Source: a virus. From it: a DNA stretch of 59,791 bases. A program made the position numbers and the translations under genes. The stretch lies in the IMG/VR virus record IMGVR_UViG_3300049846_002562, positions 1-59,791 of that record; one strand, 5' to 3'. Below, piece by piece: positions 27,535 through 53,692 of the stretch. The first letter of the stretch is position 1, and each line of letters begins with the position of its first letter. The notes under the pieces are model-generated. The model worked only from the letters and a program-made list of their open reading frames with translations. It was not told where the DNA came from and ran no database searches.

Positions 27535-30500
27535 ATGGCAGACTTTCTCCAGCGGTATGCGGGTAACATCGACCCAAACGATGAATCGATACCGCAGTCC
27601 ATCCGCGATAAGCTGACTGGAGCCAACATTCCTGGCGTTCACGTCGGCGACGCGCTCGATGCCCGTATCGGCGATCGTAGCTGGGGGCAGAAAACTGCCA
27701 GTGGCGTTACCCAAGAGCTGCTTGGGCAGCGCCACCTTGCTTTGGGGCTGGGCAATTATCTGCTGGGCGACCAAGACGCCGCTGTCGCACGCCTGAAGCG
27801 CTGGGAAGAAAACAACCAGCGCGTCAATGAAATTGCACCCGAATTTAAAGACTTTGAGCAGATCAAAGACTTCCAATCCGGTGCCAGCGTGCTGGGTTAC
27901 CAGCTGGCTAAACTGGCGCCCGACGCCATTCTTGGTCTGGGTATTGGCGCGATCGGCAAAAAAGGTGCGACTGCTGCTGCCGAAGCGGCCGCTGTTGAAG
28001 CTGCCGCCCGGGTACTTGCAACGTCTGCCGCTAAAAAAGAAGCGCTGGTCATTGCCGAAAAGCAAGGACTGGATGCGCTGAAAGAGACGGCCGGATACAA
28101 AGCCGCCGACGCCGCCAAGCGGACTGCCATGGAACAAGGCCGTCTGCAGCAGGTTCGTGAAACTGCAAAAGACGGTTTGTTGGCCGAAGCCCGCAAAAAA
28201 CTGTCGCCGGAAGCGGTAAAAGCCATCGGCAAGCGCGGCGACCTTGGGTTTGCCATTGGCGCAACCGTTGGTAGTATTCCGTCGAACCTGCAAGACCAAG
28301 GCCAGTTTATGCTGGAACGGCCGGATCTGACGCGCGAAGAAGCGCTGAAACTCCTGGCCGGCACCACGGCGTCAGCCAGCACCGACTTCATTCCGTTGGC
28401 CGGCTGGCTCAACCGCTTCTCAAAAAAAGGCGTCGAAGCTGCCCGCAAAGCGGACGAGCTGTTCACTCCGCGGTTTGTCAAAGCCGTCGTGAAACAAGCC
28501 GGCGCAGAAGGCGGTCAAGAAGCCGTGCAGGCTATGATTACGCGTCAGTCCCAAAACTGGGTCGACGAAAACATCAATATGTTCGACCAAGAAGCCATGC
28601 AGGAATACTTCATGAACTTCGTGGCCGGTGGTCTGCTCGGCGGTACCATGGGCGGTGCCGGCGAGATCGGCAGCACGACCAGTAATGCAATCGGCAACCT
28701 GTTCAAAGCGTCGTTCAAAAAAATGGAAGCCGCCCGACTCGATCGGGAAAACGCACGTGCGCAAGCTGAGCGCGATCCGAACACCATCAATGTCCCGCCC
28801 GGGGGCTTTTCATCGGCTGATCCAACCAGCGGTACTCAAGCCGCTGCCGCTGCTGCCCAAGCCAGTGGCCGAACGCTGAATCCGCAAGCCGCGGCCGTAC
28901 TCAACGGCGACGCCCCGCAGTCCGGCGACCTGGGCAGCCAGATCAAATTCAGCCAGCGCATTGACGAGCAAAGCACGGACTTGCTGACTGAGTGGCAAAA
29001 CCGCGTTGCTGCGTATCGGACTGGCGGCGTCAATGCCGCCGCGCAAGGATACGACGCCGGCGTTACCGACGTGTTGTTTCCTGTAGGCATTCGTCTGGGC
29101 GAAGAAAGCCTGCCGTTTGCCAATATCGCTGCAGGGTTTGGTTTTACCAACACCAATAAAACGTCTGAACAGCTGAAAGCCGACCCTTTGTACATCTACG
29201 GCATGCGCGCGCTTGAAAAAATCATGCGTTTTGGCATGGACAGCACCGCAGTCACCAAAGAAGACAAAGAGTATTACGCCGACCTTGTCAGTATGTCAGC
29301 AGAACCGTGGCGGTTTTCGGTAGTCACTGCGCTCCGCGACTTGAACCCGACTTTGCACGCTGAAACTCTGGCCGGAATCGACGACCGTTTGGCTGCGCTC
29401 AAGCAGCAGACGCAGAAAGAAGACTTCAACCTTGCTGAGTCCATGGGTGTCAGCCGTGACGAAATCGCCAACGTCACCGGCCAGCTCGATCCAGAAGGAA
29501 CGGAAGGTGGTCCTGAAGGGGCTGGCGCAAATCCTGACGCCATGGCGCTGACGACCAATCAGCGTACGTCCATGCTTGACCGCGATGTGACTTCGGAAAA
29601 CCGTGCCAATGCCCTGGCTTATTTGTTGAACGGCCGAAAACGTGCGTTTGACGACGGTACTGAAGACAAATCCCGCCCGCTGGGTGCTGGCGAGATCCTG
29701 ACCCGTGAGGAATTTGAGCCGGCGCTGGTCGAAGCTTTGAAAGACCCTGCAGTCATCGCGCAGCTGGGCGGCCGCGATGCCGCCATTGGCGCGTACGAGC
29801 GCTTGCAGCAGATGCTTGAGGAAAAAGCCCGCTTGATGCAGGGCAGCTATCGCCGTGAAGACGGCACACCGACCAATACGCAAGAGCGCGTCAAGCAGCT
29901 GAACAAACGCTTTGAAGCCCAAGTCATCCAAAACAAAACGCTCGATGCGTTGGCCAATATCATCCGCGCTCGGGTCATGGCTGCAGCAGATGCCAAAACC
30001 CGCGCTGAAGTGTCCGCAAATAGCGGCGTGTTCCCGAACTACAATCAAGTTGCTTTTGACGAGCGTAAAAACAACGAGACTGAAAACTCCGCATACGCTG
30101 TGTCTGACGAGCGTAACCTGATCGACCTGGGTAGCCAGATGGCACGGTTTATCTCGTCGGCTGACGGTAAAGAAGAACGCGCCGGTAAAAAGTCCGGTGC
30201 AAACGCGATTCAGCAACAGCTTGCGCTGCTGGCGCAGTTGTCAACTAATCCGCAGTTGCCGATCGATCTCGACACCGTGCCTTGGGGTAAGAAATTCACC
30301 ATCAAACGTTTTGGTGACCGTGAGTTTGTATTCAACAAAAAGCCGGACAATTTCGACACGTTTGTCGAACCTGCCCGCAAAAAAGGCGAGAACGATCTTG
30401 CGTACGCAAAGCGTACTAAGTTTCTGCGCGACAAGCACGAAGCCAATCAGCGCAAAATGGTCGCTGAAAGCCTTGCTGCGTTTGTAGCCAAGTACGGCAA

Positions 30501-33500
30501 GACCGCAGCGGAAAGCAAAACTGTCCAGAAGCAGGTTCAAGAACGCGAAACCAAAAAAGCAGAGCTTGCCAAAAAAGGCGCTGCTTTGAAAGAAAAGCGC
30601 GCCAACACGCCGCCGGAAAAACGGGTATACGAAACACCGACGTCCCTGGCTGTCGACGAAATTGGCAGCGGTGGCGGTGCAGACGCCGAGCGCGTCAGCC
30701 TTGGCGATTTTGTTTCTACGGACGCCAATGGCAACATACTGGTTGAAGAACTCCAGCCGTACAATGCCAGCGGGCTGAAAGACGAAGAAGTGGTTCCGGA
30801 AGGTCGCTCGCCGTCTCAGGAAGCCCGTAAGCTTATCCGGGCGATCAACCGCGACAAAGACGCCGCGTTTATCCTGAACATTCTGGACAAGTTGGGCATT
30901 CCTGACGCAACGCAGTTGAAATGGGACGCTGCTGAAAACGGCTGGCGCGTGTTCGTCGGCAAAGAACTTCAAAAAGGCATTCTGTCCGTGGCAGAAGTCG
31001 AAGCAAAAGCGCCGGAAATGCTGACCAATCCAATGATGAACATTTTTGGGTTTGAAGCCGGTAACCCCAAAAAACAAAACGTCACCATTGGCCGGAAAGA
31101 ACGCCCGAAGACATCGGCGGATCTTGCCGCGTTTGTAAAAGACCTGCTGATCAAAAAAATCGACGGCAACGCTTCTGCGCGCTCGATCTCGCAGCAAACC
31201 CAACGCATTATGGATATGCGTGGCCCCGCCTTGCGTAAAGCTCTTGACGACGTACTGGCAGGCGACTACGACACCGGCGCGTATCGCGCTACCGAAGAAA
31301 CGTCGCAAGAATACAAAAAACCGGAAAACGTGCGCGATGAATTTGGCGACGAAGTTGTCAGCGACGCCGCCAATCAAGAAAAGATCGACGCTTTGGAAAA
31401 CAAAGAGTCGTTTGTCGCAGACGACTTGCGCAACCTGGCGCTTGCATACGCCCGCAAAAAAGGCGTAGAAGACAAGTACGTTCTTTGGGTATTCAAGCAA
31501 GCCAACGCCATTGCCAACAATCCGAACTTCAAAACGTCGGACCAGCGCTTGAACGCGCTTGGCAATGCCATTAACGTCATGATTGAAAAACGTGGCGAGT
31601 TTGGAGACGGCCTGCGTTCAATGATGCGCGACATGAACGTCGACTTCAATCTGCAGAAACCGAAACCGGAAACGAAACTCCGCGACAACGAAAAAGCCGA
31701 TACGGACGTTCCGGCGGGCAAAGCAAAACTCGTCCCGACATATATGTCGCCGGAAACGAAAGAAAAGCTCGACAAAGAAGCTGCCAAAGAAGCTGACTTT
31801 GACGCAACGCTGACTGAGTTTGCACAGCTGATGCGCGTGTGGATGTCTAAAAAGAAACCGCTGACTGATAAGCAGCGCGTCCGTGCCGCGTTTACTAAAG
31901 TTAAACAAGACACTACGCAAAACGTAGGCATTACTAAAGAAGAAGCTGCCAAAGATACGACTGTTCTGCCTAAGAAAGACCCGCTGCGTCCGCAGACTGA
32001 TATGCGCGGATGGATTGAAAGCGCTGTCCAAGCATTTATTCAACGTCAAGTTGATGTTGGTCTAAAAACTGCTGAAAAAGCAGACAAAGTGTCTCGTCCT
32101 GTAGCTGCGGCATTAGATACGCCGTTTGCCTGGGCGTATAAACTTAAAAAAGCAGAGGAAAAAGCAAAATCTGCGCGTGCACAGTTTGACACGGACGAGC
32201 TGGTGCAAGATCTTAAAGCGCTTAATACTCCGCAAGCAATCGAGTTTGTAAAGCGCTTAGAAGCCGCGAGCAAACTGTTTGTAACACCCGCTGCGGAAAA
32301 TAAGTTTAATAAAGAGTTGACGTCGGAAATTGACGCGCTACGCGCAGTCGCACCCGCTAATGACCCTGCTAACGTAGAAAAGTACTTTGACGCTGTAGAG
32401 CGCGCATACGACGCTGCGTTTGCAAAACGTTCAGAGCGCGTTTCAAAACTGCTGGCGTCTCCGCTTGCTAAAACTGTACAAGCACAGCGCAACAACCCTG
32501 CGCTTAAAAAACCAAAGCTGCCGGAAAACATTACTCCGAGCAAGCAAGTTAATAAGCCTGATCCGCGCGCTGCTGCGCGTGCGCGTCTGTCGAAATTTAC
32601 CGCTGCCGAGCAAGCACGCCTTAAAGCAGCTTGGGATAAACTGCCGGATCAATGGAAAGAAAAAATCCTTGACGGTACGCTCAAACTGCCGAAGTCGCTG
32701 GCTACGCAGATCCAACAGGCGTGGCAAAAGCGTGCTGTGTCCAAAGTCGATCCGACGCAAAAAGCCACAAGTGCAACCGACGGGCAAGTAGCAATGCTAA
32801 GCGGCGCGCAAATGACCGAGCTTATGCGCGAAATGTTCACCCCCGGACTAGGGCGGATTGAAGGCCCAGTGACGGTTACCACTGCTTCGGACTCCCTTGC
32901 GGTCAATAATCCGAAACTCAAAGCCAGTATCGCTGCCGACTGGCAGCAACGCCCGCTGACTCAGCCGGAGCATAAAGCTACTGTTGCCGCGTTTGTGAAA
33001 AGCCTTGCCGACTTGATCGGTTCGGACGCCGCGCAAGCCATGGTCAAAACCGGCATGCTGAGCTTTGTCACCCGCGACAACCTGCCCCCGTTTGCTTCCC
33101 ACATCGGCAACGGTGTCCAGGCATACGAATACGAGGGACGCATTTACGTGCTGGCCGACGCTCCGATTGGCAATGCCAGCGGCGTGCTGCTGCATGAATC
33201 GTTCCATGCCTACGCAAAAAGCTTGTTGGGTGAAGACTACATTCCGCTGTTGCAAGAGCTGGCAAAAGAAGCCGGACTGGCAGCACCGGTTGTTGATACC
33301 AATACGGTCATGGCCAGCGAACTGGCAAACTCTGCGCCTGGACTTACTTCTATTGAAAAAAATCTTTTTGATCGTGCGCTTGCGCAATTAAACGCTAAAG
33401 AAGTTAATTTAATAAAAACAGAACTTGGTTCAGCAATCGCCGAGGGTCAAAAAGACTCTCAGCGTTTTGCTGCAGTAGTGCTTTTCAAACGCGCGACGCA

Positions 33501-36500
33501 GATGCTTAAACAAAAAGCAACTGACTATAAAACTATTGAAAAAGGCGTTCGCGTGCAGCCTGAATGGGTTATCGCGGCTAAAGCACTTGAAGACGCGTTT
33601 AGCGCATCTGAAAAGAAGCTTAACGACCTTTTGGAAAAACGAAAAAAATACCGAGATACGTATAATACGGTTTCTTCAAAGTTAACATTTAAAGAAACCG
33701 TTGAAAACGTAGAATTTAAAAAAGCGTCTATGGCGTTCAGGTATGCTAAAGACCTTTTTGTGCGTGAATTTCAAAAAAACATATCTGAAATTCAAATGCC
33801 TTCGGCAGCGCGAACTACTGCGAACATGTTTGTCGGTGACATAACATTTCAACTTGATCAGATAGAATCTGAGTTTACGCTATTAACTGCTGACGCCATT
33901 TTCAATAAACTTCGTGATATGCGCGTGCAAGAAATCCAGTATCTTCGCGGAGAAGCTTTTGTGCGTGAAGAAACTGCGGTAGATGGCGCGAATGATGGTG
34001 CTGTGGTAGAAGATTTTGTGCGAGCGCTTTATGTATACGGATCGCTTGGCAGTCTAAGTAGCGAACGTGTGCCGCGTTCTGTTAATAACGCAGCAATCTC
34101 GCAAGTAGTTAGCGAACTTGAAAAAAACCCACGTGCACATATTGTAAATACGTATAACGACATCGTTAACCGCACTATGCAGCAGTACATTGCGTATACT
34201 ACTGACGACGGTAATGTCTGGCGTAAGCACGTAAAAACAAAAAAAGGAACTGCCGATTTTGACATTGCTGCGAGCTCTATACAAACAAACTCGCATACTA
34301 ATTGGTGCATTAGCGGAGAATCGTATTCTCGCATGTACCTTAACGACGGTGATATATGGTTGCTTAACTCTAAAGATGGCAACTCGATGCTTGCTATTCG
34401 GTTTTTCAATGATGAAATTGCTGAAATTAAAGGGGTATCAAACCAGCGACAGCTTACTAACTACGAACAACGTCTTGCTGCAGAGCTTGCGCGTACTGGT
34501 CTAGTCGGTAAAAAAGAAGTGCTGCGTTATGCAAACGCTTGGGGGCTCACCGAGCTTGCATCGATTGTTGGATCTCAGGCTGATGTAGATGCTGCAACTA
34601 AATCCGCTAAGTTAGCTGCGGATGCCCGAGAAAACGGTTTTGCCATTGACGACGATGGTAATGTACTTGACGTTGCGGTTGCGGAGTATCGTGACCGTGA
34701 CTGGGACGGTGACGACGTCGGGCCTGAAGCGTTTGACGCTTTTTGGGTGCCAGATCAAAATAATTTCCAAGTACAACGCGAACGCGAACGCGACGAAATC
34801 CGTGCGAACAATCTTGTACGTCGTGAATTAAATATGCGTTTAGAAAATCGCAACGAAGCTCGCGGTGATGTTGCGGGCGAACGAAATGATGATGTGCCTT
34901 TCAGCGTCCGTGCCGACAGTCCGTCCGAAGCTGCCGACAGCGACTGGATCGCACAAGCCAAGCTGCGGGTGAAACTGGCCGGCGTGTCTCCTGAACACCA
35001 GGCCGAGGAATTTGCGGCGTACGCCATTGAAAACTACGAAAGCGCGCCGAAGAATATCCAAACCATCATCGACAAGCTGTTTGCCAAAATGAAACTGGCG
35101 CTGGCAACCATGCTGCGCAAGCTGAAAGTGGCACCGAAGTACCGCGTTGCCCTGCTAAAAGACCCGGCGGTTCTCCGGGAGATCGCGCTGAAAGGTCTGC
35201 GTCAAGCCGGCAAACGTGCCGAAGGGCATACCAATTTTGGTGCGGGCAGTATCCTTGCCGACGTTGCCATAAGTGCGCAGTCTGCAGTAACCCGCGTGTT
35301 TGGCAAAGTCTACGGCAGCGTTCAATCCGAGCGTATTGTCGCCGGCGCGCGGCAGTTTGCCAGTGAGCGCATGCGCGGATACCAAGCGCCTGGAAACGAC
35401 ACCACTATCGGTGAAAAACTCGACGTTCACAATTTGAACCAGTTTTTGCAGGAAGTGCTGACTCCTGAGCAGCGCAACGCGATGTACCAGCTGGCGCATA
35501 CGACTTTCCGTGAGGTATTCCGTCAGCTTCCGGAAAACTACGCGCTGATGCTGAACAGCAAATACGGCTTTGAATACACGATGTACAATCTGTACCACGC
35601 GTATATCAACGGACAGCTTGGCGATCAAGAAGCAATCCGGCCGTTCTTCATGCTCAACAAGGCCAAAGCCAAAGCCCGTGAGTTGCTGGACATCTATACC
35701 GACGATGACCTGGCGCTGCAGATCCTGAAAGACATGTCTGACGGCACGCTGATGAACGCAGCCAAGTCGCCGTATCCGTACATGCCGGAAATGCGTCTGA
35801 AGCGTAAGCAGACCAAAGCCGGCAGCGTGTCGCAGAAAATCAATGACGCTGCAGTCAAAGCCGGCGACGTGTTTGAGCGTATTTTCTACAGCGACTACGA
35901 CCGTGCGCGCTCGTCAGGCATTGCCGCGTATCAGGAAATTATCAACCGGATCCAGTACCGTTCCGGTGACCGCCCGACTATTAATCCAGACGGCACGGTA
36001 AACCGTGGCCTGCTGCCGGCTATCGCTCACCAGACGGGTAAATTCCTTCAGCAGTTTGATACCGCGGTCAAGGGGCTTTCAAAAGAAGCTCAAGAGCGCG
36101 TCGTCCGTGAAACCTATTTCAATATGCCGAACCCGCGCCCGGGCAAACTGTCCGAAGCGGAAACCGAAGCGTTCTACAAAATCCGCAAAATCTACAGGGA
36201 CGCCGGTGCTTACGGCGTAGCCGGCGGCACGCTCGATGCTGGGCAGATCGAAAACAATCCAGACTACACGCCGGTCATTTTTGACATCGGTGGCGACGTT
36301 AAGACTCACAAAGTCAATCTGCGTATGCTGCTTGACCAAGGCGTTATCAACGAGAAAAACGGCGTTAAAAAGTACAAATACCAGCGTACGCTGCAAGCCA
36401 TTTACGAGTTAAAGAACCCCCGTCGCCATCCGACTGACCCTGAGCCTGATTTCAGCGTTTTGGACATTGCTGCGCAAAAAGCATTCATTGACCAGGTGGT

Positions 36501-38100
36501 TGACTACGCGTTCTTTGATCCGAGCAGCGTTATGCTTGACGACCAGTTGGGCAAACAGTTTAAGCATGCGCACGCCCGCTTGTTCAACGACATCTTTGAA
36601 AACTACAAAGACGGCGACAAAGCCGACTTGGAAACCCTGGTTGCCATGCTTGAGCCGTCGCTTGGTCAGCAAGCGGTTCAGTATATTGAACCGTTGGTAA
36701 TTCGCACGGAATACGAAAAAGCGTTTCCAAACGGGTTGGACAACAAGCTGATCGAGCAAATGCGCCGGCAAGGTGCCAGCAAAGCGCAGCTTGCCGCTGC
36801 GGCACGCGTGCTTGACGCCGCCCGCAACAAGTTTACGTTCCCGATTTTGAACGACAAAGGCGAGCGCGGCAGCCCGACCATTGCGATGCTCAACAAAACC
36901 CTGGCGACCAAAATGCACAACCGTGAAACCTTGACGGCTATGCAGAATCTGTCTGCGTGGCAGAACCTGCGCCTGTTGCCGCTGGCTCTGCTGTCCAGTC
37001 TAGTTGACCCGCAGGGCATTGCCATTCGTTCCGGCGGTGACATGGGCGCGTCGTTCTTTGCGCTGCGCACCGGTATTGCGGGACTTTTTGATCAAGGCCT
37101 GCAAGACCAGTTGCATGCCATGGCCGAAGCGGCCGGTTACTCCGCGGAGATCAGCGCTGCCCAAGCGCTGCATGATGGCTTTGGCGCCGGATCTCGTACG
37201 CCGTGGGCGCGCAAAGTCAACAGCTTTGTGTTCAAGTGGAACGGACTGGAGACTTGGACTCGGCAGACCCGATACATGGCGCTGGTCGCTGGCCACGAAA
37301 TGCTGGCCAAATGGCAATCTCAGGCGCGTGGCGAAAACGCGACTGAGCAGCAGCAGGCCAACGCCCGACGCTACTTGTCTGAATTAGGTGTCAAAGTAGA
37401 CGACATCCGAGTCGGAGCACTCTCCGACGGCCCGCTTGCGGGCCGTCGGCAGGTGCTACTGTTATCTCCCGAACAGCGGCTCAATGCCACAAAAGAACAG
37501 CTCCTTGCCGACGACCGCGTAAAAGGCGCGCTCGTTCAGTTTGTTGATGAAGCCATTCTTCGGCCGAACATCTTGCAGACGCCCGGGTACTTCAAAGACC
37601 CGTTCATGTCGATATTCACTCAGTACAAGAATTTCAGCTACGCCATTTACGAGCAGATCGGTCGCCGGCTGGCTCTGGAGCTTGACCACGGTAACTACCA
37701 TGTGGTCACGGCAGCACTGAGCTATTTGCCGGTGATCTTGTTGGCTGAGTTGCTGCGCGAATTCCTTCAGTGGGGTACGGAAGGTAATCCGCAGCGGGAA
37801 CAGTGGGGTGTGCCGGAGTACACGGGCCTGGCCATTGCCAAGACCGGTTTTGCCGGTCCGCGTATCGAATACGCCAGCAGCGTGAAGAAAGACGCCGAAA
37901 TGGGCAACGTTCCGGGTACCAGCGCGCTGGGCCCGACAGTCGGAGCTGTGGGCATGATCAAAGACAGCGCCACAGGCCAGCGGTCTTGGGGAGCTACCGG
38001 AGAGTCTTTAGCCCCCGGTTCTGCGCTCTGGAAGAACTGGAACAACGACAACGCGCCCCCGGCAGGTGGGGGACTACAGCGGAAGGCTGTCGATGCCTAA
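27535..38100 (+). CDS. Giant internal virion protein with HExxH zincin motif and LPD38-like C-terminus (3521 aa)
   Basis: One uninterrupted frame of 3521 codons. Visible features in order: an N-terminal region with Gly/Ala-rich hydrophobic stretches (about residues 125-165 and 360-380) that may contact membranes; a long charged helical region (about 450-1760); a zinc peptidase motif LLHESFHAYAK with His1887, Glu1888, His1891; a low-GC-coded insert (about 1938-2450) with an NWCISGESY motif (Asn2256 onward); and a C-terminal region from ~3143 (LRLLPLALLSSLVDPQG) to the end, resembling domain LPD38 of large polyvalent proteins, with a hydrophobic helix near 3388-3411. Likely an ejected protein that opens or crosses the cell envelope. 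It is similar in size to N4 virion RNA polymerase, but I see no polymerase motifs. Confidence 0.8.
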   Translation: MADFLQRYAGNIDPNDESIPQSIRDKLTGANIPGVHVGDALDARIGDRSWGQKTASGVTQELLGQRHLALGLGNYLLGDQDAAVARLKRWEENNQRVNEIAPEFKDFEQIKDFQSGASVLGYQLAKLAPDAILGLGIGAIGKKGATAAAEAAAVEAAARVLATSAAKKEALVIAEKQGLDALKETAGYKAADAAKRTAMEQGRLQQVRETAKDGLLAEARKKLSPEAVKAIGKRGDLGFAIGATVGSIPSNLQDQGQFMLERPDLTREEALKLLAGTTASASTDFIPLAGWLNRFSKKGVEAARKADELFTPRFVKAVVKQAGAEGGQEAVQAMITRQSQNWVDENINMFDQEAMQEYFMNFVAGGLLGGTMGGAGEIGSTTSNAIGNLFKASFKKMEAARLDRENARAQAERDPNTINVPPGGFSSADPTSGTQAAAAAAQASGRTLNPQAAAVLNGDAPQSGDLGSQIKFSQRIDEQSTDLLTEWQNRVAAYRTGGVNAAAQGYDAGVTDVLFPVGIRLGEESLPFANIAAGFGFTNTNKTSEQLKADPLYIYGMRALEKIMRFGMDSTAVTKEDKEYYADLVSMSAEPWRFSVVTALRDLNPTLHAETLAGIDDRLAALKQQTQKEDFNLAESMGVSRDEIANVTGQLDPEGTEGGPEGAGANPDAMALTTNQRTSMLDRDVTSENRANALAYLLNGRKRAFDDGTEDKSRPLGAGEILTREEFEPALVEALKDPAVIAQLGGRDAAIGAYERLQQMLEEKARLMQGSYRREDGTPTNTQERVKQLNKRFEAQVIQNKTLDALANIIRARVMAAADAKTRAEVSANSGVFPNYNQVAFDERKNNETENSAYAVSDERNLIDLGSQMARFISSADGKEERAGKKSGANAIQQQLALLAQLSTNPQLPIDLDTVPWGKKFTIKRFGDREFVFNKKPDNFDTFVEPARKKGENDLAYAKRTKFLRDKHEANQRKMVAESLAAFVAKYGKTAAESKTVQKQVQERETKKAELAKKGAALKEKRANTPPEKRVYETPTSLAVDEIGSGGGADAERVSLGDFVSTDANGNILVEELQPYNASGLKDEEVVPEGRSPSQEARKLIRAINRDKDAAFILNILDKLGIPDATQLKWDAAENGWRVFVGKELQKGILSVAEVEAKAPEMLTNPMMNIFGFEAGNPKKQNVTIGRKERPKTSADLAAFVKDLLIKKIDGNASARSISQQTQRIMDMRGPALRKALDDVLAGDYDTGAYRATEETSQEYKKPENVRDEFGDEVVSDAANQEKIDALENKESFVADDLRNLALAYARKKGVEDKYVLWVFKQANAIANNPNFKTSDQRLNALGNAINVMIEKRGEFGDGLRSMMRDMNVDFNLQKPKPETKLRDNEKADTDVPAGKAKLVPTYMSPETKEKLDKEAAKEADFDATLTEFAQLMRVWMSKKKPLTDKQRVRAAFTKVKQDTTQNVGITKEEAAKDTTVLPKKDPLRPQTDMRGWIESAVQAFIQRQVDVGLKTAEKADKVSRPVAAALDTPFAWAYKLKKAEEKAKSARAQFDTDELVQDLKALNTPQAIEFVKRLEAASKLFVTPAAENKFNKELTSEIDALRAVAPANDPANVEKYFDAVERAYDAAFAKRSERVSKLLASPLAKTVQAQRNNPALKKPKLPENITPSKQVNKPDPRAAARARLSKFTAAEQARLKAAWDKLPDQWKEKILDGTLKLPKSLATQIQQAWQKRAVSKVDPTQKATSATDGQVAMLSGAQMTELMREMFTPGLGRIEGPVTVTTASDSLAVNNPKLKASIAADWQQRPLTQPEHKATVAAFVKSLADLIGSDAAQAMVKTGMLSFVTRDNLPPFASHIGNGVQAYEYEGRIYVLADAPIGNASGVLLHESFHAYAKSLLGEDYIPLLQELAKEAGLAAPVVDTNTVMASELANSAPGLTSIEKNLFDRALAQLNAKEVNLIKTELGSAIAEGQKDSQRFAAVVLFKRATQMLKQKATDYKTIEKGVRVQPEWVIAAKALEDAFSASEKKLNDLLEKRKKYRDTYNTVSSKLTFKETVENVEFKKASMAFRYAKDLFVREFQKNISEIQMPSAARTTANMFVGDITFQLDQIESEFTLLTADAIFNKLRDMRVQEIQYLRGEAFVREETAVDGANDGAVVEDFVRALYVYGSLGSLSSERVPRSVNNAAISQVVSELEKNPRAHIVNTYNDIVNRTMQQYIAYTTDDGNVWRKHVKTKKGTADFDIAASSIQTNSHTNWCISGESYSRMYLNDGDIWLLNSKDGNSMLAIRFFNDEIAEIKGVSNQRQLTNYEQRLAAELARTGLVGKKEVLRYANAWGLTELASIVGSQADVDAATKSAKLAADARENGFAIDDDGNVLDVAVAEYRDRDWDGDDVGPEAFDAFWVPDQNNFQVQRERERDEIRANNLVRRELNMRLENRNEARGDVAGERNDDVPFSVRADSPSEAADSDWIAQAKLRVKLAGVSPEHQAEEFAAYAIENYESAPKNIQTIIDKLFAKMKLALATMLRKLKVAPKYRVALLKDPAVLREIALKGLRQAGKRAEGHTNFGAGSILADVAISAQSAVTRVFGKVYGSVQSERIVAGARQFASERMRGYQAPGNDTTIGEKLDVHNLNQFLQEVLTPEQRNAMYQLAHTTFREVFRQLPENYALMLNSKYGFEYTMYNLYHAYINGQLGDQEAIRPFFMLNKAKAKARELLDIYTDDDLALQILKDMSDGTLMNAAKSPYPYMPEMRLKRKQTKAGSVSQKINDAAVKAGDVFERIFYSDYDRARSSGIAAYQEIINRIQYRSGDRPTINPDGTVNRGLLPAIAHQTGKFLQQFDTAVKGLSKEAQERVVRETYFNMPNPRPGKLSEAETEAFYKIRKIYRDAGAYGVAGGTLDAGQIENNPDYTPVIFDIGGDVKTHKVNLRMLLDQGVINEKNGVKKYKYQRTLQAIYELKNPRRHPTDPEPDFSVLDIAAQKAFIDQVVDYAFFDPSSVMLDDQLGKQFKHAHARLFNDIFENYKDGDKADLETLVAMLEPSLGQQAVQYIEPLVIRTEYEKAFPNGLDNKLIEQMRRQGASKAQLAAAARVLDAARNKFTFPILNDKGERGSPTIAMLNKTLATKMHNRETLTAMQNLSAWQNLRLLPLALLSSLVDPQGIAIRSGGDMGASFFALRTGIAGLFDQGLQDQLHAMAEAAGYSAEISAAQALHDGFGAGSRTPWARKVNSFVFKWNGLETWTRQTRYMALVAGHEMLAKWQSQARGENATEQQQANARRYLSELGVKVDDIRVGALSDGPLAGRRQVLLLSPEQRLNATKEQLLADDRVKGALVQFVDEAILRPNILQTPGYFKDPFMSIFTQYKNFSYAIYEQIGRRLALELDHGNYHVVTAALSYLPVILLAELLREFLQWGTEGNPQREQWGVPEYTGLAIAKTGFAGPRIEYASSVKKDAEMGNVPGTSALGPTVGAVGMIKDSATGQRSWGATGESLAPGSALWKNWNNDNAPPAGGGLQRKAVDA
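37411..37449. repeat. Overlapping perfect inverted repeats inside the giant gene
   Basis: GTCGGAG (37411-37417) pairs with CTCCGAC (37422-37428), and a second 12-bp perfect stem (37424-37435 with 37438-37449, loop TT) overlaps it. Both lie in coding sequence. No T-run follows, so these are not standard terminators. Confidence 0.6.
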
Positions 38101-38471
38101 GAATGCGTCTGAGAGCGATTTAGCAACATAGACCCGTTCAGCGCCGCCTCTAGCTCGGCAATTTCTTCTAGTAACCGCGAAACACAGGCTTCTACGGTTT
38201 CATCGTTGAGCATGCCGGCGGTTGCGGGGGCGTGCAAGTCAGCCTTCAAGATCTCGATGGTCTGTTGGATGGGAAACAGGTTGATAGTGTAATGGGCGGC
38301 GTCGCAGTTGCCGCAGTAGAAGCTGTCGGAGTGGTCAAAAATCCACTCCTGGGCGGCAAAATCCCACCGGCCGGAGCCTTCTTGCCGCAGATCGATTGAG
38401 TGGCACTCTGCGCAAGAGGGCCACAAAAGTGTGACGGAGTTCACAGTTTTGGGAGATTCGGGAGTCGGCAT
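38097..38471 (-). CDS. Hypothetical protein with two CxxC pairs (124 aa)
   Basis: First gene of the minus-strand block; its stop overlaps the stop of the giant gene by 4 bases, so the two transcripts converge here without room for a separate terminator. The N-terminal half has CAEC and CGNC, a likely zinc-binding pair set, and aromatic residues between them. The C-terminal half is helical and acidic (EACVSRLLEEIAELEAAL). Its start adjoins the TGTCACA repeat region, so it may be controlled by that element. Family not recognised. Confidence 0.65.
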   Translation of the reverse strand: MPTPESPKTVNSVTLLWPSCAECHSIDLRQEGSGRWDFAAQEWIFDHSDSFYCGNCDAAHYTINLFPIQQTIEILKADLHAPATAGMLNDETVEACVSRLLEEIAELEAALNGSMLLNRSQTHS

Positions 38472-38771
38472 GTGAATTTTCCATTAAAAAAAGGTTAAAT
38501 TTGGCGTCGTGTCACAGATTTCAGCGTTTTTGTCACAAAAAATAGTCAATAAAATCAACGATGTCACAAATGTCACACTATTTACATACTCTACTACTTT
38601 TTATATATATATATTTTTTAGGGGGGAATAGAGCAGACGGTGACTTTTGTGACATGCTTGTTTTTGTTAGCTTTTTTTCTGTGACACGACTGCTTGATCA
38701 GCCCTATTTTCGTTAAGTTTGCGTTAAACCGACGCGACGACTGCTTTTTTGGAAGTCGTTTTTGTGACAGA
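38472..38771. promoter_or_regulatory. Candidate replication origin or operator cluster with TGTCACA repeats
   Basis: No gene is visible in these 300 bases. They are strongly A/T-rich in an otherwise GC-rich genome and contain seven heptamers: TGTCACA at 38510, 38531, 38562 and 38571, and the inverted form TGTGACA at 38648, 38680 and 38763. Between the two sets lies an alternating TA tract (about 38601-38615) followed by T and G runs. The last copy is part of the palindrome TGTGA-CAGA-TCACA. This layout is known from iteron-type origins and from clustered repressor sites. Confidence 0.6.
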
Positions 38772-39299
38772 TCACAGTTTTTTGAGTTCAAATGCTGCCC
38801 GCCAGAGCAGCTGCACAGCTTCAGCCAGCTTGATGTTCGCCCCTTTGGTGCTTTCCGGGTCGTAGACGGTCTTTTGGAAATCCAGAATATCGTCTCGCAG
38901 TTGGTCTACTCGGCTGACAGGATTTTCTGGCATACCTACCCAGTCTTTGTCGACTTCGACAACCTGTCCGTGCTGCGATGCGGCATTCTGCACTTTGCCG
39001 TGGCGCAGTTCACTCAAACGTACGTCTTGGACTGGGATTTCGCCCAGCAGCTCTTTTTCAGTTAGGCGGGCGTACCCGATGATGTCGGTCCAGCTGTCGA
39101 CGTAATAAGGGTCGCCGTTGACGATTCGGCCGATCTTGTGGGCGATCATGTCCAGGGTTTCTTGCATGTGCGGATTGCAGCTGTCCCAGCTGCGGCCGCT
39201 GTGGATTGCCCGCTTGATGTCCTGGGTGATCATGGCGTGGTCAGGGTACTCGCCGTAGCGTTTACCGCGTTCGTACAGAACCTTTTCGATGTCAGACAT
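38772..39299 (-). CDS. DUF6378-like protein (175 aa)
   Basis: The N-terminal ~95 residues match my recollection of the DUF6378 family of phage proteins: ERGKRYGEYPDHAMITQDIKR, then LDMIAHKIGRIVNGDPYYVDSWTDIIGYARL. The pattern of helices with His, Asp and Lys residues recalls MazG-type nucleotide pyrophosphohydrolases, but the full metal site is not obvious. The C-terminal half is a charged helical extension. It overlaps the next gene upstream by 8 bases. Confidence 0.7.
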   Translation of the reverse strand: MSDIEKVLYERGKRYGEYPDHAMITQDIKRAIHSGRSWDSCNPHMQETLDMIAHKIGRIVNGDPYYVDSWTDIIGYARLTEKELLGEIPVQDVRLSELRHGKVQNAASQHGQVVEVDKDWVGMPENPVSRVDQLRDDILDFQKTVYDPESTKGANIKLAEAVQLLWRAAFELKKL

Positions 39300-44272: not shown

Positions 44273-44495
44273 CGTTGGGCTCCTGTGGTTTGGTTGAATG
44301 GATGTCGAAAGCTTCTAAGATCTGTTCGTCAGTCAAATGGCCGAAGCCGTTAGCTTGTAAGAAAAGCACTGCCAAAGGCACGGTTCCAAAGACCATGGGG
44401 TTGTTGTTGTCGTCCAACAGGTATTCGTAACCGTTGATACTGACGCCGTCAATCGGCCGGCGAACCAAAAATAACTCTTGTGCATGGGAGTTCAT
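44232..44495 (-). CDS. Hypothetical small protein (87 aa)
   Basis: Mixed-structure protein with segments RRPIDGVSINGYEYLLDD and PLAVLFLQANGFGHLTDEQI, which give it a plausible folded core. Its stop lies inside the downstream gene (41-base overlap) and its start shares one base with the polymerase stop region. Family not recognised. Confidence 0.55.
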   Translation of the reverse strand: MNSHAQELFLVRRPIDGVSINGYEYLLDDNNNPMVFGTVPLAVLFLQANGFGHLTDEQILEAFDIHSTKPQEPNDGTVLQTDDSGRE

Positions 44496-46399
44496 TATTT
44501 ATCGTACCTTTGTGAGATATGGGCATCCACCGCAATAGGCAGACCGACAGCCCATTCAGGGCTGAGACTCATAATCTCGTTGGTGAGTTTGAGTGCTTTG
44601 TCTGCGTAGCGGTTGGGAACAATTTGAACAATTTCGTCATGGGTGGACATGACGATCTGTGACCAGGGCATTGCGTCTTCAATCATTACCATCTGGTGGC
44701 CGATGACGGAACGAGCAAGCGCCTGCGTATTGTTTTCAACGATCAATCCGCCGTACAGCTTTTGGCGCAGCTCAGTGACGTCGCCGGTACGCTTGTTGAC
44801 GGTGCGCTTGGTGACATACGTAAGATCTGCACCACCCTGCACACCGTCGTAGCGGATGTACGTGCCATCTGGCAACACGGTAATGCCGCGTTTGCCATCG
44901 CCTTGGTAAGTGACGAATTCATCATCAACACTGCGGCCTTGGATAAACGCGTCGGTCATCAAAGTCTGCTGGGTTTTCCAGTTGGTAACAATCTTGTGGT
45001 TGGCCTGTCGCCACGCGTTCACAATGGCGTAAGCTTCGTTGTCGCTAATATCAAGCGGGGGTCCAAACGCGCCGACACGCAGCATTTCAGCGTATCGCAT
45101 TGCGCCGGCACCGTAACCGAGTGCCAGAACGGCAACCTTGCCGACAAAGCGTTCCAGTTTGTCTGCGGGCGTGATGGTGCGACCGTAAATCTTACTGGCA
45201 GCAAGGCAGTATACGTCTTCTCCGCGAGCGAACGCGTCGACGATGTCTTGCTGATACGCCGTGTACGCATTCATCCGGGCTTCAATCTGCGAGAGATCCG
45301 CGATGATAAGTTTGTGAGTGGAAGGAGCGTAGATAGCGGTACGCATATCGGAGCCCCGGGATAGATTCTGCCAGTTGGCTTTGTCACCGCCCGACCAACG
45401 GCCGGTTTTGGCACCCCAGTAGTTGAGATAAATCGGTTGTACGCCGTGCGTCGAGCGTACGGCCATGCGTTTGGAGCGCGTTTCGACCGTGCTGCTTTTA
45501 AGTGCAAAGCGAGCTTGTACCAGCGTGCGCAGCTCAGGGTCTTCGTGGGACAGCAGTTTCTTGAATTCCAAGTCGCTTTTGGACAGCGCCATGGCGTCTT
45601 TGCCGGTCGTTTTGCTGATTTTGTACGGGACGCTGTAGCCCAGTTCGTTCATCAGTTTGGCGAATTTGTCGTTACTGACCAGCTCGCCGGCTTCGATGGG
45701 GCGTTTGAATATTTTGCTGACTTCATCGACTTGGCTGGCTTTGCCTGCGATGGTGTCGTCGTGCAGCTTGCTGACCAGCTCGGTGTCGATCATCAGCCGC
45801 GGTTGCGCGTACATCTTGATCGTGGTGTTGATCAGCCGCAGTTCCTGGGGGATGGTGTGCGGCAGCAGACGGTCAAACAGGAACCAGCAGTCTTCGATGT
45901 CGTCACCGGCGTACGGAGCCAGTTCGGCATATTGCTTTTTAGTCAGCACGCGTATGCCGTCAACGTTGGTCAGCGCGCCGGCTTTCTGTTTAGATTGCCG
46001 GCCGAACGCTGCGCACAATGAGAACAAGCTCATGTTGACGCCGACGGGCATGACGGGGCGCGCCATGGATATGGTGTCGAAGTACGCTTTGGCTTTGACT
46101 TTGAAGTGCCGGCTGGCGATCAAGCCATCAAATTGAGCATGATGTGCCAGGATACCGGCGCGTTCCCAGTTAATACCTGCAGCCCAGATTTTGAATTGTG
46201 CCGGCGTCATGACGCGCGGCTTTGCCCAGCCGTTTTTCATGACGGCAACCATGTGCGCATTGAAGCGCTTGTCAAAGATGTATTCCGTAGTCGCCATGCT
46301 TTTCAGGGAATACTTTGACTTGGTGCAGTAGTAAGTTTCCCAGTCGATGCCGTAAATGGCGTCGATGTCAAACAGCTTCAGTACATCTTTAATTTCCAT
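44495..46399 (-). CDS. DNA polymerase, family A, with 3'-5' exonuclease domain (634 aa)
   Basis: Exonuclease motifs: IDWET (Asp19, Glu21), HHAQFDG (Asp91) and YAGDDIED (around 163-170). Polymerase motifs: A IADLSQIEAR with Asp368, B with Lys and YG (KVAVLALGYG), C MSTHDEIVQ with His587, Asp588, Glu589. There is no N-terminal 5'-3' exonuclease domain. The exonuclease is short, as in phage enzymes. It is the replicative polymerase of the phage, supported by the helicase-primase downstream in sequence. Overlaps the neighbouring small gene by 11 bases. Confidence 0.93.
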   Translation of the reverse strand: MEIKDVLKLFDIDAIYGIDWETYYCTKSKYSLKSMATTEYIFDKRFNAHMVAVMKNGWAKPRVMTPAQFKIWAAGINWERAGILAHHAQFDGLIASRHFKVKAKAYFDTISMARPVMPVGVNMSLFSLCAAFGRQSKQKAGALTNVDGIRVLTKKQYAELAPYAGDDIEDCWFLFDRLLPHTIPQELRLINTTIKMYAQPRLMIDTELVSKLHDDTIAGKASQVDEVSKIFKRPIEAGELVSNDKFAKLMNELGYSVPYKISKTTGKDAMALSKSDLEFKKLLSHEDPELRTLVQARFALKSSTVETRSKRMAVRSTHGVQPIYLNYWGAKTGRWSGGDKANWQNLSRGSDMRTAIYAPSTHKLIIADLSQIEARMNAYTAYQQDIVDAFARGEDVYCLAASKIYGRTITPADKLERFVGKVAVLALGYGAGAMRYAEMLRVGAFGPPLDISDNEAYAIVNAWRQANHKIVTNWKTQQTLMTDAFIQGRSVDDEFVTYQGDGKRGITVLPDGTYIRYDGVQGGADLTYVTKRTVNKRTGDVTELRQKLYGGLIVENNTQALARSVIGHQMVMIEDAMPWSQIVMSTHDEIVQIVPNRYADKALKLTNEIMSLSPEWAVGLPIAVDAHISQRYDK

Positions 46400-51154: not shown

Positions 51155-52507
51155 TCAGTCTTTGAGTAAGTCGAGTAAATTCATCATGCGGTCGTACTTA
51201 TCGTTAAGACGTGCGTAGACTTTGGCTTCGACAGTGCCTTTGGCTTCGATAAGTATGGTGTTAGTGGCTTTATTTTGATCGCCACGGTAAATACGGTGGA
51301 TAGCTTGTTTGAGCATATCCGCTTCGTATATTGGTGAGCTGATGATCGTGGTAGTACCACGGGTCAGCGTCAGGCCATGCGCACCGGTACGCGGATGCAG
51401 CAGCAGCGTTTGATATTTGCCGGCTTGGTAGTCGGCGACGATTTGCACGCGCTCAGCTGTTTTGACGTTACCGTCAATGATGGCGAATTTGATGTCGCGT
51501 TTCTCGAATTCTTCAGCCAGCATGTCGCGCTGGTGCTTCCAGTTGAAGAACACAATGCTGTGGTCACGTTCTTCAACCAGCTCGGCGATCAGCTCATAAC
51601 GGCCGCGATCGATGACGACGTAGTGGCCGTCTTCCTGCCCGCTGTAGACTGCACCGGACGCAATTTGCAGCAGCTTGGTACGCAAGCTGGCGGCATGCAC
51701 GGCGCTGATACCTTCGGACTGCAGCATGCAGTTCATGCGCATTTCTTCGTAGCGTTTCCAGGCGTTTTTGGTCAGGTTGAACGCCCTGGTGCTGCGATGG
51801 TTGGCCGGCACGTGCGACATGACGGTTTCAAAGTCGTGGCGCACGGTCATGGGCGCCAGAATCTCGCGGATGGCGATGTCGGCACCGGGTTTGTCGTCCC
51901 AGCGCACGTGCTCAGGCTTGGGTCCGATCTGCGTCGGCTGCTGGACTTTATTGCGTAACGCTGTGTAGCTGGTACCCAGAGAACGGCCGCCGTCAATGAT
52001 TTTGGTCGGGTGAAACAGTTCCATGACTGTGTTCGGCGTTGGCGTACCCGTCAGCAGGCGTTTGTGAGTAAAGCCTTTGCTGATTTTCTCCATGGCTTTG
52101 GATCGTTTGCTTTGCGGGTTTTTGAACGCGTTGGACTCGTCAATCACCAGATGGGTGAAGTGCTTGAGGTACGGCGTAAATTCCTTGGCGGTCAGCTCTT
52201 TGACGCCGTCGGTATTGATGATAACGACGTCCGTTTGCAGCGTGAATGCGTCAAGGCGCGCGCCGGCGTAAGCGTAAGAGACGGTCAGTTTGGGTGCGTA
52301 TTCTTCGATGTCTGCGCCCCATGCGGTTTGCATAAGGGTCTTGGGCGCGACGATCAGCATGCGTTTGCGGGTTTTGCACTCTGCAAACGACTCGATCTGC
52401 ACACGGGTTTTGCCAGTACCAGGGTCGGAGAAATCGAATCCGCTTTGGACTTTGCTGAAGAATGTAATCGAATGGTCTTGATGTTTCCAGCGTGGCTTAT
52501 TGGACAT
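51155..52507 (-). CDS. SNF2-like DEAD/DEAH helicase (450 aa)
   Basis: Superfamily 2 motor: motif I DPGTGKT (residues 28-34), motif II VIDESN (121-126), motif III LLTGTP, and motif VI QAIHRIYRGDQ (401-411). The order and the short size match compact SNF2-type helicases of phages. It probably remodels or unwinds DNA during replication or recombination. Upstream lies the structured intergenic stretch at 52508-52764, which would be the 5' leader of this gene's transcript. Confidence 0.88.
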   Translation of the reverse strand: MSNKPRWKHQDHSITFFSKVQSGFDFSDPGTGKTRVQIESFAECKTRKRMLIVAPKTLMQTAWGADIEEYAPKLTVSYAYAGARLDAFTLQTDVVIINTDGVKELTAKEFTPYLKHFTHLVIDESNAFKNPQSKRSKAMEKISKGFTHKRLLTGTPTPNTVMELFHPTKIIDGGRSLGTSYTALRNKVQQPTQIGPKPEHVRWDDKPGADIAIREILAPMTVRHDFETVMSHVPANHRSTRAFNLTKNAWKRYEEMRMNCMLQSEGISAVHAASLRTKLLQIASGAVYSGQEDGHYVVIDRGRYELIAELVEERDHSIVFFNWKHQRDMLAEEFEKRDIKFAIIDGNVKTAERVQIVADYQAGKYQTLLLHPRTGAHGLTLTRGTTTIISSPIYEADMLKQAIHRIYRGDQNKATNTILIEAKGTVEAKVYARLNDKYDRMMNLLDLLKD

Positions 52508-52984: not shown

Positions 52985-53692
52985 TTACACCCCTACAGGA
53001 CAGACACCAAGTTCACGTGGCCCGTACGGACAGTACCGGCACGTCTGCTTTGTTGGATTGGGGCGGAAGTGTTTGTCGTTGTATAGCTTCTGAACGCGCT
53101 GATCGAAGTGATCAACGAATTTCAGAGCCCGATCTTTGTTGTAGTTGATGGCTTTGACGTGGCCTTCGTCAACGTACCAGAGCTCGGTACGGATGAAATC
53201 GAAGTAAGGAAATTTGAGCGTGGCGCAGGCTGCATACAGCTGCGTCTGCTGGATGTGCTCGATGGCTTTGTACATGGACTTGCCGGACTTGTAATCGCCG
53301 ACGATCAGCGTGCCGGTGTCGTCGTCGAATACAAGAAAGTCGAGCTTTGACCAGAGCCAAACGTCGTCACGGGAGCATTCAAACCAGTCTTTGTCGAAGA
53401 ACCAATTGTCTTCGGCAGTGGCCTGGTTATTGGCGTACAGCAGTTGCAGGTTTTCCAGCGCCGGCTCAAACACATCGAGCTTTTTGGCTTCGTTCTTTTC
53501 CAGAGTCTCGGTGCCTTTGACGTAGGCTTCTAAGTTGTTATGGATCCGGTTACCGCGTTCCATGGGGTTGTCAGGCGGTCGTTCCGGTTCGGGAATGCGG
53601 TCAATGTATTGGAGTTTGAAGCGGAAAGCGCAGGTCTCGTACTTGGTGAGTTTGCTGAAAGACCAGTTAATTGGCTTTGCTTCAGTGGACAT
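52985..53692 (-). CDS. Cas4/RecB-like PD-(D/E)xK nuclease with Fe-S cysteines (235 aa)
   Basis: Motifs in order: Cys21, GNRIH (His51), WSKLDFL (Asp118), VGDYKSGK (Asp133, Lys135), QQTQLYA, and the C-terminal cluster CRYCPYGPRELGVC (Cys218, 221, 231). Four Cys in this layout bind an iron-sulfur cluster in Cas4- and AddB-type exonucleases. There is no CRISPR gene nearby, so a role in phage replication or recombination, possibly 5' end processing, is likely. Confidence 0.85.
   Translation of the reverse strand: MSTEAKPINWSFSKLTKYETCAFRFKLQYIDRIPEPERPPDNPMERGNRIHNNLEAYVKGTETLEKNEAKKLDVFEPALENLQLLYANNQATAEDNWFFDKDWFECSRDDVWLWSKLDFLVFDDDTGTLIVGDYKSGKSMYKAIEHIQQTQLYAACATLKFPYFDFIRTELWYVDEGHVKAINYNKDRALKFVDHFDQRVQKLYNDKHFRPNPTKQTCRYCPYGPRELGVCPVGV

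Follow-up and report, generated by a model that had tools for sequence, protein, structure and literature searches.

Iteron plasmids with RepE/Rep_3 initiators and phage lambda, with its O protein, carry iterons beside an AT-rich unwinding element, the initiator not being a helicase. In phage P4, which has both an ori and a crr site, the repeats are bound by alpha, a primase-helicase whose primase part is of the TOPRIM kind. Clusters of inverted repeats are also known at partition sites and at packaging or recombination sites. Among staphylococcal islands, the helicases SaPI Rep and SCCmec Cch2 bind iterons via their C-terminal domains, the SaPI origins and the putative SCCmec one lying just downstream of rep (PMC7581432). 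The NrS-1 primase-polymerase, NrSPol, recognises single-stranded 5'-GTGA-3' (PMC8718748), and two 8-nt sites of the TTTGGTTA kind have been proposed as a possible NrS-1 origin (PMC7102993). The pRN1 initiator ORF904, comprising a primase and an SF3 helicase, acts at a large hairpin-capable origin that lacks iterons and requires a 100-nt stem-loop, and for phage relatives, too, the case made by its authors was one of stem-loops rather than iterons (PMC4234260).

The window considered here, a viral record analysed over its whole length of 59,791 bp, contains a compact array (38500-38780) that is interpreted, with a probability of roughly 0.7, as a theta-type, iteron-type origin read by the phage's primase-helicase, the binding, melting and firing being inferred. 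All seven copies of TGTCACA on either strand fall inside 260 bp (38510-38769) and none lies elsewhere, so that the first-pass annotation, which would have been refuted by a heptamer equally frequent across the genome, withstood this search; a shuffled record is expected to hold about 7.7 copies, scattered rather than clustered. The annotation's description of four forward and three inverted copies around a TA tract, with one direct tandem at 9 bases, proved exact (Table 1), as did its contention that the cluster exceeds chance. When random 300-bp stretches were drawn at the dinucleotide composition of the island itself, only 2 of 20,000 contained at least three copies of TGTCACA and no heptamer of any kind was present more than five times, and the mixed-orientation cluster reached a log10 p of -13.2, against -8.8 for the best among 40 locally shuffled genomes. 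The extended repeat unit reads TGTCACA-R-A, and the layout is mirrored, the 9-bp pair of iterons 3 and 4 on the left facing iteron 5 and a degenerate copy, likewise 9 bp apart, on the right.

Table 1. Features of the array and of the neighbouring and replication genes in the window
Feature	Position	Strand	Remarks
Iteron 1	38510-38516	+	TGTCACA(GA)
Iteron 2	38531-38537	+	TGTCACA(AA)
Iteron 3	38562-38568	+	9-bp tandem with iteron 4
Iteron 4	38571-38577	+	
TA core	38602-38614		TATATATATATAT; loop of the palindrome and candidate DNA unwinding element
GGGGGG run	38621-38626	+	beside the TA core
Degenerate iteron	38639-38645	-	GGTGACT; 9 bp in register with iteron 5, mirror of iteron 4
Iteron 5	38648-38654	-	
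Iteron 6	38680-38686	-	
Iteron 7	38763-38769	-	followed by opposed degenerate copy GATCACA at 38770-38776
Imperfect inverted repeat	38538-38678		39-nt arms 38538-38576 and 38640-38678, 79%, around the core
124-aa protein, unknown function	38097-38471	-	directly downstream of the island
175-aa DUF6378-like protein	38772-39299	-	directly upstream of the island
Replicative DNA polymerase, family A	44495-46399	-	
SNF2-type helicase	51155-52507		
PD-(D/E)XK nuclease	52985-53692		
Primase/SF3 helicase (DUF5906), 817 aa	53899-56352	-	predicted initiator; NrS-1 polymerase relative

The island between the two flanking minus-strand genes (38472-38771) has 35% GC in a record of 55%, as the annotation's picture of an A/T-rich island in a GC-rich genome implied, and is the lowest in GC of the whole record, tied with a stretch at 33.6 kb; clustered short repeats and an adjacent AT-rich element, two of the marks of an iteron origin, are both present. 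Its description as gene-free holds overall, except for two short open reading frames that are probably spurious. The junction of late and early genes, at which the array had been placed, is nearby, but the late (plus-strand) and early (minus-strand) modules converge at 38097-38100 and the island is found 370 bp from there, within the early module. Cumulative GC skew, one of the checks proposed, turns over broadly between 25 and 38 kb, is confounded by gene direction and carries no information on an origin.

As single-stranded DNA, the array folds with a z of -6.06, none of the shuffles folding as well, and the pairing between its halves extends past the heptamers along the 39-nt arms. Such a fold, together with the stem-loop requirement of pRN1, could mean that a large palindrome is recognised instead of the heptamers. 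The inverted repeats account for much of the palindrome, however, and what is conserved is a short repeat recurring every 8-12 bp, its copy number and arrangement varying; recognition of the palindrome itself is accordingly held to be a slim possibility. Of the large stem-loop near the replicase gene that marks the pRN1 type, the window offers the fold, at 15 kb from the gene. Against the proposal made for phage relatives of pRN1, these phages have both stem-loops and iterons.

A second explanation, a repressor or activator array controlling the gene at 38471, had been allowed for by the first-pass annotation. A phage regulator acting on the seven sites would control the 124-aa gene, the island being directly upstream of it, or else the last part of the early operon; on each strand, a single sigma-70-like site overlaps the repeats, and a further degenerate copy lies inside the 124-aa gene (38430). 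Promoter-like sites are no commoner than in shuffles (2 vs 1.1), though, an array of seven sites facing both ways about a melted core would be excessive for one small gene, and the same design is found in loci with quite different neighbour genes. An operator array is thus improbable and less supported than an origin, although no experiment excludes it.

The protein predicted to read the array as an origin is the 817-aa primase-helicase. It matches DUF5906 (PF19263, 1.2e-23), its helicase part is homologous to that of the NrS-1 primase (PDB 6k9c, E 2e-33), and it is 32% identical to a KPP25 protein over 98%. Its AlphaFold2 model (mean pLDDT 87.8) matches the folds of the NrS-1 C-terminal region (CTR; E 3e-25), SaPI5 PriRep1 with dsDNA (7pds, 6e-9) and other D5-type helicases. 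Both aspartates of the primase catalytic DxD (D107 and D109) are invariant across 42 relatives, catalytic activity being inferred. The C-terminal residues 711-790 show in the model the helix-strand-helix-helix-hairpin order of a winged helix; compared alone with the PDB, they matched no fold significantly (best E 0.66), with winged-helix proteins among the weak hits. A winged-helix-like character is therefore possible, and because no significant match was obtained the DNA-binding role of these residues is an inference. The gene lies 15 kb from the array, and no second array adjoins it, upstream included. Only 3.4 kb of early genes lie beyond it, compared with about 15 kb in KPP25, and there are no terminal repeats at the record ends (1 and 59791), so the record is probably incomplete. 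No relatives at the nucleotide level were found among public phage records.

Related phages at the protein level were nonetheless available for comparison. The window's giant virion protein (3521 aa, 27535-38100) keeps its last ~470 residues in KPP25-like phages and in a further relative, L201. In KPP25 (L025), the homologous giant virion gene is followed closely at its 3' end by an AT-rich island, which matches that of the window in position. A AAATAAATATATAAAG core is flanked there on either side by TGTYACGA repeats recurring every 8-9 bp, with a G-rich stretch beside the core placed as GGGGGG is in the window. This first island is near-identical among four Kochitakasuvirus-like (KPP25-like) genomes, and all four genomes examined have two islands each, with an AT core flanked by repeats; the second, in the early region of KPP25, carries the same TGTYACGA repeat. 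That second island (L025:6200-6910, 26.2-26.9 kb of the record) also contains three copies of a 49-nt unit, GTGGCACTAAGGCTCCAGC...TGTTACGAAATTTT, whose core recurs in the first island; these units may be promoters or else a second site for the initiator. Elsewhere in KPP25, AGCCCAGCC occurs 17 times in 9-bp tandem (L025:9864-10120), probably as a coding repeat. In NrS-1, all 11 copies of GTTACACTT lie in an inverted array within 316 bp directly downstream of the primase gene, and the array includes the sole exact TTTGGTTA of the record, the published primase recognition site (PMC8718748); the portions of PMC7102993 and PMC8718748 that were available make no mention of an iteron array that could be found. 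The repeats of the window, KPP25 and NrS-1 have a GTYAC core in common, and the islands of these relatives fold strongly as well (z of -5.6 and -7.6 in KPP25, -5.3 in NrS-1 and -7.9 in the family locus L099).

Conservation in relatives, on which the first-pass annotation had staked its claim, is nevertheless divided: an island occupies the corresponding site in the KPP25 group, whereas L201 keeps the same neighbours (polymerase 47%, SNF2 helicase 57% and giant protein 33% identical to those of the window) and has no island there, only a terminator hairpin between converging modules. This hairpin (L201:14457-14494), with 17 nt perfectly paired, is flanked by A/T runs at the point where the early and late modules converge, and is apparently a bidirectional terminator standing in the island's place. 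The closest relative with the primase-helicase (G001, 54%) has a record that stops short of the matching site; a candidate island in its early region was rejected as an array, holding only three CGTGCCAA.

A search by DNA alone took the layout as its query, the pattern being TGTCACA, 2 bp, TGTCACA, 60-90 bp and TGTGACA in viral contigs. It returned 79 viral stretches, against three for a reversed-pattern control. As the pattern itself imposes an inversion and a 9-bp pair on each locus, only extra copies and spacings are free evidence; most of the 79 loci hold extra copies, many at 9 bp, in varying numbers and arrangements, and of the 155 nine-bp steps in total, 79 are forced and 76 are free. 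The richest arrays (L276, L303, L327, L341 and L345) have 12-14 TGTCACA each. The commonest protein family among these loci is the primase-helicase, present in 25 and less than 500 bp from the array centre in 15, while terminase lies within that distance in 0 of 19 and SNF2-type helicases in 1 of 15. Nine representative proteins have DUF5906 and/or D5_N or DUF3987 together with Prim-Pol or TOPRIM primase parts; since the primase parts vary, what these proteins have in common is the helicase. Among array records of at least 25 kb, 22 of 35 contain DUF5906, compared with 0 of 21 records of a polymerase lineage, a control that is biased because this lineage has a different replication module. The iteron-origin reading proposed by the annotation is thus supported both by the KPP25-like and NrS-1 architecture and by a search that leads from DNA alone to primase-helicase genes. 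The latter result also tells against a partition (centromere), packaging or recombination site, as does the absence of any identified partition gene adjoining the island, so that this explanation, for which the general occurrence of inverted repeat clusters at such sites can be cited, is very unlikely.

Arrays were also sought from the protein side, through 80 viral loci found by alignment to contain this primase-helicase. Under a strict test, a strong AT-rich inverted array was present in 8 of 21 genomes or long records with the gene, including G017, whose repeat is the TGTTACGA of KPP25, and G005 (locus L099), where CTGTGAC, which includes the window's TGTCACA, occurs 14 times; no array was found under this test in phiA008, which has no clear array by other means either, and 12 others. 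Several high-scoring clusters were classed as coding repeats, their copies lying on the same strand at multiples of 3, and were left out. Because the detector uses exact heptamers and misses degenerate arrays, the counts of absence are lower bounds. At several loci of the family, the primase-helicase gene is preceded by the array at a distance of no more than about 0.3 kb, and over the 400 bp upstream of that gene in 69 loci, repeated heptamers (p 0.0005) and the motif TYMCRM (p 0.0015) are enriched relative to GC-matched windows from the same loci. Twenty heptamers picked blind to sequence resemble one another more than their letter-shuffled versions do (z 8), a likeness that may come partly from common ancestry; TYMCRM alone, being degenerate, fails to find arrays in most genomes.

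Phages outside the primase-helicase family can have arrays too. A terminase-based control search gave one locus, so the polymerase lineage without DUF5906 was used instead, and 3 of its 80 loci have inverted arrays (CTATCTA, CATAACA; L199:1188-1527, L212:2670-3012 and L241:19-348). Another genome without DUF5906, G002 (L022:19200-19570), has an AT core and TGTATTAG/TGTGTTAG in 9-bp pairs, a look-alike array whose reader is unknown. DUF5906 is likewise missing from roughly one in three array records of at least 25 kb. These look-alikes and records mean that another protein could read the repeats, a separate initiator such as lambda O or SPP1 G38P, and the 15 kb between array and helicase gene in the window point the same way. 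Yet no other family comes near the primase-helicase in adjacency to arrays, the repeats resemble each other across phages of the primase-helicase family, and phages without DUF5906 may use other D5-type helicases. An iteron origin with a different reader is unlikely, if by no means negligible, and the phage's own primase/SF3-helicase remains the likely reader, in the absence of binding data.

Set beside the described systems, the window resembles the SaPI and SCCmec origins in its short iterons and, for its predicted reader, in the D5-type helicase. It meets their criteria of repeats, AT core and a D5/DUF5906 helicase and fails that of gene adjacency, which many relatives satisfy; binding is inferred. 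The repeat sequences differ, and those origins belong to staphylococcal islands rather than to a large phage. The likeness to the NrS-1 primase-polymerase (PMC7102993 and PMC8718748) lies in the sequence and structure of the helicase region and in that phage's own inverted GTTACACTT array with TTTGGTTA, though the window phage has an additional family-A polymerase. With pRN1 it shares an initiator of primase and SF3 helicase and a large hairpin-capable origin (PMC4234260), and differs in having iterons.

Arrays of iteron plasmids and lambda O, by comparison, are mostly one-directional and their iterons longer. The two islands of KPP25-like phages are akin to the ori and crr of P4, whose repeat and TOPRIM primase are different; no second repeat site of this kind was found in the window record, which has one site and may be incomplete.

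In the mechanism proposed here, which is inferred throughout, the primase-helicase would bind the TGTCACA iterons, perhaps via its C-terminal domain; two helicase rings would be loaded by the inverted tandem groups, one on either side of the TA core and turned towards each other; the core would melt, perhaps aided by extrusion of the palindrome; and the primase-helicase would then prime, with the family-A polymerase extending. The exclusive clustering, the inverted symmetry, the AT core with its G-run, the recurrence of the design among related and unrelated phages alike and the linkage to primase-helicases are observed, while binding, melting and firing rest on the analogy with SaPI Rep and SCCmec Cch2. 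As the GTGA recognised by NrSPol is present in every TGTGACA, the repeats could, speculatively, double as priming sites.

With confidence only a little above even, these arrays are taken to form a widespread class of phage origins, palindromic iteron arrays read by NrS-1/D5 DUF5906-type primase-helicases, in which the repeats diverge around a core close to TYMCRM (TGTCACA, TGTTACGA, GTTACACTT and CTTCCAA being examples) and some phages have two origins. The members of this proposed class had not previously been linked, a limited literature search having found no earlier description of such phage origin arrays. Near-identical arrays beside one family of primase-helicase genes in many viruses suggest the way in which DNA replication begins in a large group of phages. 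Now that a concrete array and its predicted reader can be named, the site of replication start in NrS-1-type primase-polymerase phages becomes directly testable, with cultured relatives available in the KPP25-like Pseudomonas phages. In genomes of uncultured phages, the DNA signature points the way to predicted origins and in many cases also to the gene of the initiator, and the set of arrays is useful for following the co-evolution of initiators and origins.
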